From: a bacterium
GTDB lineage: Bacteria; T1Sed10-126
Assembly: GCA_003557545.1 (NCBI GenBank)
Contig: PWOD01000005.1
Coordinates: forward strand, 1 to 5,863
DNA: 5,863 nt
Direction of reading: 5' to 3'
Below are positions 1 to 5,863 of this stretch, piece after piece. A program made the translations under genes and the position numbers. The notes beneath the pieces were generated by a model. The model made no database searches and had not been told where the DNA came from. It saw only the letters and a program-made list of their open reading frames with translations. Position 1 is the first letter of the stretch, and each line of letters starts with the position of its first letter.

Positions 1-3000
1 ACCTACTTCGGCAATTCTAGCGCCACCGGAGCCGCCTTCAGCCGTGTGCTGCCCGAATTCTGTGTCGCCGCCTGAACCACCCGAATCGGATAGAGTCCCC
101 CCTCCCCCTCCGCCACCAATCATCGTTGCTTTTATTCGATACACGCCACTTGGAACCGTCCATGTACCGTCCCCGGAAAGCGTTTCCACACGTGTCATGG
201 GCGCATTGCCTTTTACTCGCAAATCCCCGTATACATCCCCGCTTAGCTCGAAATCACCGCTTAGCTCGAAATCACCGCTTACATCAAGCAAGCCTGCAAC
301 CTCTAATCCTGCGGACAACGCCGCCTTGTCGGTGGTGAGCGATAGCAGCTGCGGTTCGGCGCCTACTCCGATGTATGCGTTCCCCTCACCGTCGGCGGAC
401 AAGCGGAGCGGTTCATCGAGTCCTGTTTCAAGGTCACCCGTATCCGATATTTCCATCGATGAACGAACGCGGGTATCGAGCGTAGAGAGTCGTATGGTCG
501 TCAGCTCGAGTGTGAGGTTACCGTCTCCATCCAACTCGATGAACGACTCTCCGTCGGTGTCGCCGATTTTGAACGTGCGCTCATTGAGATCAACGTGGAA
601 ATGCTGAGGCGCCATCGGCGCTTCAATGCGCCCGGTGGTGAGAGTACCCATATTCGCGGTGATCGCTTCGAGGCTGTCGACGTTGATCTTCTCGGCAGTA
701 ACGGCATCAGCGTCCAACTTCTCGGTCACTACCGCATTGGTTGCGATCTTTTCCGCGACGACCGCGCCAGCGGCGATTTTGTCGGTTTCAATCGCGTCGG
801 TTGCAACTTTCGCTGCTGTCACAGCCTCGGCGAACAATTTCTCGGTGATGACCGCCCCGGCGGCTATCTTGTCGGTTGTGACTGCCGTGTCGGCCAGCTT
901 GTCTTCGACAATCGCCCCGGCCCCGACTTTGTCGACAACGATCGATCCATCTTTTATCTTGACCGTGCTTATCGACCCGTCGGCAATAGTGTTCTCGACG
1001 ACTGATGATTTACTGAGATCGCTTGTCACCGCGGGCCGAGTCGACGCGGAAACCGGCTCGCTCCACTCGCTGGCTATTGAGTCATCATCGGTACGCACAC
1101 GCCGCATTCGGTAGTAGAGCGTTCGCGGCTCGGGTTCCTCGTCGGTACCGGCGTGCGGCACATCACTATGTATCCACACCTCGCCGTCAAAATGTTCGAA
1201 ACCGCCTTCGCTGCCGGTCTTCCAATCCTCGCCATCGTGCTTCGGGCGATACCACGGCCCATCCGCTGAGTCCGACACCTGTACATCGTAGCCATAGCGA
1301 CGCACGTTGTTCTGTTGGTCGGCGAGCACATAAATGTCGCCCAAGAACCGGCGCGTCGAGAGCACGGGCGTGGTGAGGTTGATGTCCGAGGCTCTACTGG
1401 TTATCTCTTCGACTTCCTCATTGACGAAAATGCGTTCGCCCTGATTGCCTGCCACATCAATAGCGACAACAGAGTAGCGATACTCGCCGAGGTCAAGCTC
1501 ATCGAGTCGAACATACAACTCATCGCCCTCGGCAAGGATTTCCTCGGGCCAGTGCGTGCCACCGTCGAGGTCGAGATCATAGTCGGTCGTCGACGCATCA
1601 CCGCCGTCGATATCAATATCGTAGTCGGTAGTCGAGGCGTCACCACCGTCATAATCGACGTCGTACAATCCATCTCGACTGACAACGTATGTGCGGATCG
1701 GTAGTGCGTCGCCCTGCCACGGTGCGTCAGGCGGACGCCAGAACAGTTGCACTCCGTCCACGAGAACGGTTGCCGAAAGCTGCGTCACAGGGCCCGGGGC
1801 ACGAATGTCGATGGTATCGGTAGCGCTCTCTGTGGCGATATTGCCGGTGGTGTCAACGGCACGAACCTGTACGGTGTACTCGCCTGCGGTCAGGTTCTCC
1901 CAGAGAAACACCGTGGAATCACCCTCGAAGATTGTCTCGGCAGTATCCCAGTCCTCGCCATTGCGAAGTATAAAGTATGCGAAGTCTTTGTCCGCTATGC
2001 GCGACCACGACAGTTGAATCCCTTCGCCGGGACGAATGTCGTGCGTGATCGCGCCAACAATATTCGGCGGCGCGTCTTTTCCAAGAACCTGAATCGAGTC
2101 CTCGGCCCACTGACTTGATGTACCATCATTGGAAATGGTTCGCGCGCGAACGGTGTAGGTCTCAAGTGTGTCGACGTCGGTTATCGATACTTCCGCGTCT
2201 TCCGGGTCAACGAACATGGCGTTCCACGAATCGTCACTGCCTTCAATGCGCCATTGGACCTCATGCCGTTCAATCCCGGCGAAGGAGCTACCGGCGATTA
2301 TCTCAACGGCGATTCGATTCTCCCAACCGCCGTCACTCTTTTTCTTAATCGTCGTGCCGTCGGCGCGAAGCGATATACCGGGTATCGGCGGCGTGCGATC
2401 ATCGTCGGCGACAAGCGTTACTCGCGGATCGAACTCCGGCGCTTCTCCGGCCTCCGCGTCGAATATCGCCTGCTCTGTCGGCACGAGCGTGAGCTTCGCA
2501 GCGTAATCGTCTTCGGGCACGATCGAGGTAATCATGTAGGTGTCGGTAAGCTGGCCCATCTCACGGGTGCCGTAGAGATCGCCCGCAGCAATGTTGTACT
2601 GATCGACCTCACTGGATTTCAGGCTCACCGTTGTCACAGTGCTTTCGGCGTTCTCGAGTTCGATGAGGTAGTCGTCATCGTCGGGCGTGCGGATACGGAT
2701 AGCGTAGTCGGTGCCGGTCTCCATCGTGATCGGCTCATCGAGCTCAAGTGCGGTGACCTCATCTTGCTCGTTTCGAATGACCTCAACGAGCCTACCGCTT
2801 GTGACACCGAGTAGCGCGACATCATGCGTAACGCGGACCCAATCACCGCGACGACAACGCAACGCCTCGAAATCCGCGTTCAGCGCAAACCGAGTACGTC
2901 GCAATGTCGTCTGATACAGATCGCGCCTGCCATAGCGCCATGCCTGATCCTCACCAGTGATTCCCCACAGCTCAGTGTCGTCGACCACGGCATCCGATGG

Positions 3001-3507
3001 ATTGTCCTCATCGAAGTAGACGCGCATCTCAACTTGCTTGTAGTCGGCGTCGGCATCGATAAAGGTTACATTGAGTGCAGTCGCCGGTTCGGCGAAATTC
3101 TTGGTTGCGGAGAACCCCCAAGAGTTCTTTGGCGTAAAATGCTGGATCGGGTCCTTCGGCTGATCTTGAGCGACACCGAATTGGCCGCCGTTTTTGACGA
3201 CGAACGCCTGTCCGACCGACGCTATGAGCTGTAGCTGCTCTGCGAGCGTCTGACTCTCTTGGTCGTATGCGTTTACTTTGTAGCCCTTGTCGACGCACGT
3301 AGCGAACCATGACTCGAGTGCTTCCCAATCGATCTTCGCGTCCGGAACCGTGCGCTTCGCCGCCGGCCCCTGTAGGGTAAACAAATAGGCGCTTGCCGGA
3401 TTCGAGTCGTGATCGTGGGTATAACTCCATTCGCTCGCTCCGCTTCCGCTACCGCTGTACACCGGCAACGAAACCTTGCCCGTGCAACTGAGCTGGTCAA
3501 TGATGCC
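1..3507 (-). CDS. Phage tail tip / host-specificity protein (lambda gpJ-like), truncated at both ends
   Basis: This frame is open for 1169 codons without a stop, from the CRISPR repeat to the left edge; an in-frame TGA inside the repeat (3511-3513) closes it upstream. Counting the first codon as residue 1, residues 1-365 resemble the core of lambda J: NPASAYLFTLQGPA near 40, HFTPKNSWGF at 123-132 and RGDWVRVTHDV at 220-230. Fibronectin-III-like domains follow at about 370-480, 480-570, 570-705 and perhaps 710-830. Ten decapeptide repeats lie at 850-949, then a beta-rich segment (near 965-1060), GDFELS repeats, and a glycine-rich end beginning TWTVPSGVYRIKA, with seven glycines at 1131-1137. 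In the family, J sits at the tail tip and its C-terminal part binds the host receptor. Lambda J is 1132 residues, so this protein is larger. No start codon or ribosome site is visible: the N-terminal part is missing at the repeat. Family assignment is secure; the fine domain limits are my reading. Confidence 0.9.
61..180 (-). other. Glycine-rich C-terminal segment of the tail protein
   Basis: The minus strand encodes GDGTWTVPSGVYRIKATM followed by IGGGGGGG and more Gly/Ser-rich sequence continuing to the left edge. A short beta segment of the form T-W-T-V-P-x-G-V leading into a glycine run is the pattern of glycine-rich tip domains in many phage tail and adhesin proteins. A receptor-contacting role is inferred from that pattern and from the C-terminal position. 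The glycine run gives the plus strand a strong C/T-rich tract at about 97-114. Confidence 0.6.
241..276 (-). repeat. Two perfect 18-bp tandem copies encoding GDFELS
   Basis: Positions 241-258 and 259-276 are identical 18-bp units (plus strand GCTTAGCTCGAAATCACC). They encode GDFELS twice, residues 1078-1089 of the tail protein, and a third imperfect GD-type unit follows. Perfect identity suggests a recent duplication, in frame and so only lengthening the protein. Confidence 0.85.
661..960 (-). repeat. Ten in-frame 30-bp units encoding decapeptide repeats
   Basis: Exactly 300 bp encode ten consecutive decapeptides, residues 850-949 of the tail protein, each beginning with Lys. Examples are KLADTAVTTD, KIAAGAVITE, KIAAGAVVAE and KLDADAVTAE. 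The consensus is K-[IVL]-x-[AD]-x-[AS]-[VIL]-x-x-[ED]-like, with hydrophobic positions 2 and 7. The DNA units have diverged but lengths are perfectly kept. Similar K-I-A-x-x-A-V repeats are common in the shaft regions of phage tail-tip and fibre proteins, so a rigid, probably trimeric spacer is the likely role. Confidence 0.85.
1561..1662 (-). repeat. Asp-rich tandem repeat in the tail protein, 42-bp unit
   Basis: Residues 616-649 contain GGDASTTDYD twice, separated by IDID, with flanking partial copies (DYD before, LDLDGG after). The unit is 14 codons (42 bp). Synonymous differences between copies show an older duplication under protein-level constraint. It sits inside a fibronectin-III-like domain, probably as an enlarged loop. 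The dense aspartates could bind calcium, but I see no standard EF-hand-like loop, so this is only a possibility. Confidence 0.75.
3475..3506 (-). CRISPR. Presumed spacer 1 (32 nt), identical to coding sequence of the tail gene
   Basis: The 32 nt directly downstream of the repeat are where the leader-proximal spacer must lie, because 32 nt is the usual type I-E spacer length. Read on the minus strand it begins GCATCATTGACCAG and ends ACGGGCAAG. It is not followed by a second repeat; instead the gpJ-like reading frame continues through it. With the last repeat base it encodes GIIDQLSCTGK, which fits the gpJ family at this point. It is therefore spacer and protospacer at once. The inner spacer limit is assumed from standard length, since no second repeat marks it. 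Confidence 0.6.
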
Positions 3508-3535
3508 GGTTCATCCCCGCGTCCGCGGGGAACAC
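3507..3535 (-). CRISPR. Single type I-E CRISPR repeat (leader-proximal), array cut off
   Basis: The minus strand reads GTGTTCCCCGCGG, then ACGCGGGGATGAACCG, a 29-nt repeat of the classic type I-E kind. The inverted CCCCGCG/CGCGGGG arms form the hairpin that Cas6e binds and cuts at its base. Its place after cas2 and a leader, with the GTG end facing the leader, is the standard arrangement. Only one copy is present: no second copy or degenerate terminal repeat can be seen to the left. In type I-E systems the final G of the repeat usually comes from the last base of the PAM of the acquired protospacer. Confidence 0.93.
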
Positions 3536-3672
3536 TCCATTTGCAAGTAGCAAAAATGTAAGGAGATACTCGATCGAAGTCCATGTACCGGCGATTTCGA
3601 TGCATAAATGGTTGTATGTCAAAGATCGGCATCGAAGAACAGGTGTGGATCGCCGGGCTGTGCTTCGGGATC
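3536..3672 (-). promoter_or_regulatory. CRISPR leader between cas2 and the array
   Basis: A 137-nt non-coding stretch separates the cas2 stop from the first repeat. Its repeat-proximal part is more AT-rich than the surrounding genes and ends ACTTGCAAATGGAGT directly against the repeat. In type I-E systems this region drives pre-crRNA transcription and directs Cas1-Cas2 to insert new spacers at the first repeat. I could not place a convincing IHF site by eye, so whether integration depends on IHF here is undecided. Confidence 0.75.
3555..3583 (-). promoter_or_regulatory. Possible pre-crRNA promoter in the leader
   Basis: On the minus strand TGGACT and TACATT stand 17 nt apart, each matching the sigma-70 -35 and -10 consensus at four of six bases. 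Transcription would start roughly 10 nt before the repeat. The position suits an array promoter, but the match is weak and chance is a real alternative. Confidence 0.25.
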
Positions 3673-4909
<1,237 letters not shown>

Positions 4910-4936: not shown

Positions 4937-5581
4937 TCAGAGCGGGCTGATCGAAAGCAAACCGAATCCGAATCCCTTTGCCGGACCAACTCCGGAGCGG
5001 ATGGCAGACGCGAAGCGGTAGGGATCCTGAACAGTCAACTGTCCGTCGAAGCGAACTGCGTAAAGCGTGATCGGTGCCTGACCGTTTCTCCGGTTGCCGG
5101 TTACCTCCCCTTCCTTCTGTGCAAGGGCGCCGTCGAGTCGCGCTCCACCCTGTTGGAGCTTTCGTTCCAACCATTGGTCCTGAAGATTGTCATTCAATAT
5201 AGGAATACGGATGCGCTTAAGATCTCCGGTAGAATCCGTCTCATTCTCACGTCCACCGCGTATCGTTTTGATTGGATTTGCGCGCAACCGGAATCGTAGC
5301 CTCTGTCCCTTGCCAAAGCTCGGTAGTGCATACGGTTTGCATTCCGCCTGTACATCCATGTTCAGCTTTTCTCTCGGACGATCCCAATCCGGTTCTTTTT
5401 CGCTTTGCACGAGCAAGGAGACGAACGGGCCGTCAGGTAGCTCGGGCCGGAAAAGAACCCTGGAGCCGTGACTCCCGCTGCCACATGCGCATGATACGAG
5501 TCGATGCATCTGATAACAGTCCGAAAGGACTTTGAGATGTCGTGCATTCAAGACATTCAGGTGTACTTTACTGAGGTACAT
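4937..5581 (-). CDS. cas6e: Type I-E pre-crRNA endoribonuclease Cas6e (Cse3)
   Basis: This 214-residue protein cuts pre-crRNA at the base of the repeat hairpin and stays bound to the crRNA 3' stem as part of Cascade. It begins MYLSKVHLNVLNARHLKVL, the usual Cas6e opening. Tyr23 and His26 (in CYQMHR) match the known catalytic pair of Cse3/Cas6e in both spacing and number. The C-terminal glycine-rich loop GPAKGFGFGLLSISPL is the RNA-binding loop of the family. The frame is open back to 5746, but the start is placed at 5581 because the family begins MYL and GGAGG lies 6 nt upstream; an ATG at 5587 directly abuts GGAGG and is a poorer choice. It overlaps the end of cas5e by 14 nt. Confidence 0.95.
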   Translation of the reverse strand: MYLSKVHLNVLNARHLKVLSDCYQMHRLVSCACGSGSHGSRVLFRPELPDGPFVSLLVQSEKEPDWDRPREKLNMDVQAECKPYALPSFGKGQRLRFRLRANPIKTIRGGRENETDSTGDLKRIRIPILNDNLQDQWLERKLQQGGARLDGALAQKEGEVTGNRRNGQAPITLYAVRFDGQLTVQDPYRFASAIRSGVGPAKGFGFGLLSISPL

Positions 5582-5863
5582 CGGCATCCTCCAGATTGAA
5601 ATCCGATACGTCGCGAAAGTCGGTTCGTACGTAGCGCGTTCTGAACTCGCGTGCGCCGAGTTCGAAGCTAACCGGTTCATCGTGTCGCTGCTCGCCCGCA
5701 CTCCCGTCGTCCGGAACGACCAAGCGCACTCGTGTTTCCTGATCATTCGCGGTCCGGCGTAGGGGGATCAGGTGTAGCGGTGACAGCAGGTCCGAGTCCC
5801 TGAAAATCCAATCGGGTTTCGTGAACGGTGCTGAGGCAACATAGGATTTGCGACCGAGAAAGA
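5568..5863 (-). CDS. cas5e: Type I-E Cascade subunit Cas5e, C-terminal part
   Basis: A frame entering from the right edge encodes the last 97 residues and stops at TAA (5568-5570). It starts FLGRKSYVASAPF, the conserved FLGRK segment of Cas5e, and contains FRTRYVRTDF near the end, resembling the RYVRT-type strand of the family. Cas5e binds the 5' handle of the crRNA in Cascade. E. coli Cas5e is 224 residues, so somewhat under half is visible. The stop lies 14 nt inside cas6e, indicating translational coupling. This frame is easily missed because it has no start codon within the window. Confidence 0.9.
   Translation of the reverse strand, partial: FLGRKSYVASAPFTKPDWIFRDSDLLSPLHLIPLRRTANDQETRVRLVVPDDGSAGEQRHDEPVSFELGAREFRTRYVRTDFRDVSDFNLEDADVPQ
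5588..5592 (-). promoter_or_regulatory. Ribosome binding site of cas6e
   Basis: GGAGG on the minus strand, 6 nt before the ATG at 5581 and within the 3' end of cas5e. It fixes the cas6e start and removes a 55-residue spurious N-terminal extension. Confidence 0.8.

Follow-up and report, generated by a model that had tools for sequence, protein, structure and literature searches.

A de Bruijn graph represents a k-mer that a host and a phage have in common as a single node. Protospacers and spacers have been described as sharing such graph nodes (PMC12342471), and the assembly of CRISPR loci is known to yield chimeric contigs (PMC6617893). In type I-E systems the last base of the repeat itself comes from the PAM and is brought in with the spacer (PMC3338789), so that host and phage are expected to be identical over this base, a G, and the 32 nt of the spacer.

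Here we analyze a contig (C155) in which a type I-E CRISPR repeat passes directly into a phage tail gene. The contig makes up the entire window, that is, the whole stretch of DNA that was analyzed (5,863 bp), and belongs to a draft genome of 2.15 Mb that comprises 239 contigs and is 92% complete. Read along the minus strand, it consists of a cut open frame, cas6e, cas1e, cas2e, the leader, one repeat, and a 1,169-codon frame that runs to the other contig end. Its features are:

5568..5861, minus strand: C-terminal piece of an open frame truncated by the contig end, probably cas5e, judged by position only
4937..5587, minus strand: cas6e (casE/Cse3); TIGR01907, 100.2 bits (cut-off 45.2); PF08798, E 2.2e-47
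3980..4909, minus strand: cas1e; TIGR03638, 375.9 bits (cut-off 215.6)
3673..3999, minus strand: cas2e; TIGR01873, 117.4 bits (cut-off 33.15)
3536..3672, minus strand: leader of 137 nt, from the cas2 stop to the repeat; read directly, and positioned as in the relative G049
3507..3535, minus strand: single type I-E CRISPR repeat, 29 nt, perfect, GTGTTCCCCGCGGACGCGGGGATGAACCG; sole copy in the contig and the genome
3475..3506, minus strand: putative spacer 1 of 32 nt, which would also be the protospacer in phage J and the zone shared at the join; placed by the 61-nt repeat-spacer unit
1..3507, minus strand: fragment of the J gene for a phage central tail fibre, running off the contig end and lacking about 400 N-terminal codons; recognized by phrog_31 and the homologue profile

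The assignment to type I-E follows from the products Cas1e, Cas2e and Cas6e, all of which exceed the curated NCBIfam cut-offs, and the cas1e product is 63-65% identical to known Cas1e proteins. The truncated frame at 5568..5861 has no Pfam or NCBIfam match, and no tblastn match in relatives. Likewise, cas7e (TIGR01869) has no match in the source genome; because the contig ends upstream of cas6e, the Cascade genes may be unbinned. In nine short contigs (C30, C35, C40, C45, C50, C55, C60, C65 and C70), the stretches that were sampled read as N only, and the absence of a feature from the source genome is thus incomplete evidence.

The two halves of the contig have GC contents of 0.573 and 0.556, as against a mean of 0.453 (sd 0.047) over 40 sampled contigs of the genome, one of which is as high. 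The tetranucleotide distance between the halves is 0.028, and each half lies 0.043-0.053 from the genome mean, the genome's own contigs averaging 0.023. The contig is therefore a GC outlier in its bin, and may be misbinned or recently acquired. As a consequence of this unusual composition, assigning the CRISPR locus and the phage to the source genome would take more evidence; the host of the CRISPR locus is uncertain, and the contig is unsuited to naming it.

No other match to the repeat at up to 3 mismatches (<=3) occurs in the window, for which shuffles give an expectation of 0, or in the 2.15-Mb genome. At the offset expected of a second repeat (58 to 65 nt) there is none, the best match agreeing at 13/29 bases. 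An array of 29-nt repeats with spacers of about 32 nt is hence not what the contig contains, as it has one repeat only; an initial sequence-only reading, which had noted one type I-E repeat with no second, was correct on both points. The relative G049, whose Cas1 is 63% identical, has cas1, cas2, a leader and nine repeats spaced 61-62 nt, which continue up to the contig end, and all three relatives G049, G034 and G030 are represented by short contigs that end inside arrays. A decayed locus was also encountered in another genome (L022, 7338-7617, on the 507-kb contig C4 of G029), where only about the first 90 codons of cas1e are left and lead straight into a solitary type I-E repeat that is slightly trimmed.

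Starting at the last G of the repeat, a frame extends without a stop over 1,169 codons, as far as the end of the contig. It matches phrog_31 with an E of 2.3e-59 over profile positions 529-1011, and carries a Phage-tail_3 domain. It thus codes for a central tail fibre akin to lambda J, of which it covers the middle and the C-terminal part, and resembles the family profile while lacking the N-terminal part of a complete gene. An alignment of seven sequences, scanned against viral and genome contigs, recovered 126 loci, the best of which reach no more than 41% identity over the first 240 residues; the J proteins of six isolate phages show 31-36% identity over the same residues. A phage search from the single J sequence found no phage. 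Weak phrog_31 matches on the source-genome contigs C153, C182 and C17 fall in the C-terminal half of the profile, outside the N-terminal part. The fragment also contains several internal repeats: in-frame short repeats at 1567-1651 and 229-288, in which GGDASTTDYD is duplicated and ELSGDF recurs, and DKIAAGAV-type units at 689-937 (39-nt family D1), which are found in distant J homologues too.

The point at which phage homology stops could be located with some precision. The 126 loci include 65 distinct ones whose alignment starts at the first codon of the frame, and residue 1 is Gly in 65/65. The residue preceding this invariant Gly is Asn in 37/65 and Ser in 24/65. The J proteins of the six isolate phages also align from residue 1, which corresponds to their residues 408-433, or 580 in one, their genes starting 407-432 codons (579 in one) ahead of the start of homology. 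Homologues have a conserved upstream block, [IV][KR]A[TS]xQL[NS], that is missing from the window, and in all six isolate phages a conserved block ending in [KR]A[ST]xQL[NS]-G lies directly at the entry point. We built a position-specific profile from 68 distinct J homologues: the window scores +18.4 bits in the seven codons that follow the repeat (homologue mean +17.6), whereas in the ten codons that precede it the score is -29.4 bits, against a homologue mean of +29.6 and a lowest homologue of +9.0. Furthermore, a stop codon stands in frame two codons ahead of the Gly. Taken together, the switch in the profile and the upstream stop place the end of the phage sequence at the final base of the repeat, give or take about a codon. 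The phage homology accordingly ends at that base, inside a conserved block of J. The sequence-only reading had proposed a gpJ-like frame of 1169 codons opening at the last repeat base, with family-like sequence from the first codon after the repeat, and both proposals hold, the first through the phrog_31 match and the second through the profile scores on either side of the edge. Its further statement that a phage gene boundary coincides with the repeat edge stands for the edge of homology but not for the start of the gene, J being entered in mid-gene with about 400 codons missing.

The usual type I-E PAMs require a G at the repeat-adjacent base. The shared G opens the codon of the invariant Gly, and is a G in 65/65 homologous loci, the commonest PAMs predicted from the homologues being ACG (21/65) and ATG (16/65). 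In E. coli, ATG and AAG lead to rapid interference, whereas CCG, the repeat end, does not (PMC6568314). The foreign homology thus starts at the PAM-derived last base of the repeat, which is what a chimera through a spacer and its protospacer calls for.

We consider it very probable that the contig is an assembly or library chimera formed through a shared spacer 1 and protospacer, an explanation that is supported, not proven. Under this explanation, two DNA molecules of one mixed sample would have been joined. A type I-E locus would carry a 32-nt copy of phage J as its leader-proximal, and hence newest, spacer, and the phage matching that spacer would have been present in the same sample. The spacer and the PAM-derived last repeat base would make about 33 nt identical in host and phage, and an assembler entering the shared stretch from the leader and repeat could exit into the phage; template switching in amplification would be a less likely route to the join. 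We infer that the shared stretch spans 32-33 nt; the real host would then have a second repeat after spacer 1, and the join would have arisen during assembly, with the real assembler taking such a path through the graph.

A simulation of graphs from 60 synthetic pairs, each a random array and a random phage with 33 nt in common, contained the leader-repeat1-spacer1-phage path in every case for k up to 33; one to two forks were left along it at k=31-33, and the path was gone by k=39. The single repeat in a draft genome of 239 contigs also counts for the chimera. Counted against it are the absence of the exact 32-nt putative spacer from viral_contigs, and the similar composition of the two halves, which is equally expected of a real junction. 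The exact 29-nt repeat has no match in the viral contigs either. The chimera proposed by the sequence-only reading is therefore supported by the homology edge at the PAM base, the cut of J in a conserved block, the graph path, and the relatives with truncated arrays; so too is its view that a genuine recombination is the less likely explanation.

That the junction is a real molecule, with phage DNA brought to the spacer side of repeat 1 by recombination or half-site integration, is improbable. Recombination of spacer 1 with its protospacer in a phage, whether infecting or integrated, would leave phage DNA inside the array; it predicts the same junction and agrees with the similar composition of the halves. 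However, a CRISPR locus would have to exchange DNA across some 33 bp with the very phage that it targets, and this otherwise targeted phage would have to persist. Moreover, the missing N-terminus of J was not found elsewhere in the source genome with a distant relative as the probe, no second example was seen, and a literature search on spacer-protospacer recombination found nothing. For a comparison of the junction among related genomes, the phylum offers two genomes only, and the one of the same family lacks a cas1 match. We regard recombination by itself as unlikely. Natural decay of an array, in which a deletion would have fused the first repeat to some unrelated remnant of a phage, is very unlikely: the lone repeat fused to a truncated cas1 in L022 does indicate that deletions into repeats occur, but that repeat is trimmed at its 5' end, unlike the one studied here, and deletion end points are not expected at the exact repeat edge with the correct PAM base. 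We give even less credence to a phage or other mobile element with its own type I-E CRISPR locus beside J; relatives of the Cas1 are present on some phage and plasmid records, but this possibility is disfavoured because none of the J-homologue loci has cas1, cas2 or cas6e, and because the break in J would fall within a conserved block. Least probable of all is a half-site product, in which Cas1-Cas2, one of whose two sites of attack is the spacer side of the repeat, ties one end of a long untrimmed phage DNA to repeat 1: this would give a leader-repeat-phage order cut exactly at the edge, but is expected to be a rare, short-lived intermediate that should not dominate an assembly, and both it and recombination are disfavoured because each needs a rare event to do so.

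The join as such is most likely an artefact and no biological feature; neither a fused gene nor a prophage residing in a CRISPR array should be deduced from it. Its by-product is a probable spacer-protospacer pair from one sample, which links a CRISPR locus to a phage that it probably targeted. It also serves as a warning that phage sequence can reach host bins via joins between spacers and protospacers.

Three known systems provide the terms of comparison: 1) Chimeras from the short-read assembly of CRISPR loci (PMC6617893; graph view PMC12342471) have in common with this contig the break at a repeat/spacer boundary, the fragmented assembly and the nodes common to spacer and protospacer; the present join differs in running into a phage gene, and in being one that we infer. 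2) The type I-E locus, with its order cas6e-cas1e-cas2e-leader-repeat, is matched in gene order, families, a 29-nt repeat with dyad, and leader position; the contig differs in having one repeat, and its upstream cas genes lie beyond the contig end. 3) The J protein of phages (phrog_31; lambda J-like) is matched in the Phage-tail_3 domain, the fibronectin-like regions, the DKIAAGAV-type repeats and the alignment from the invariant glycine; the contig differs in having a CRISPR leader and repeat in place of about 400 N-terminal codons.
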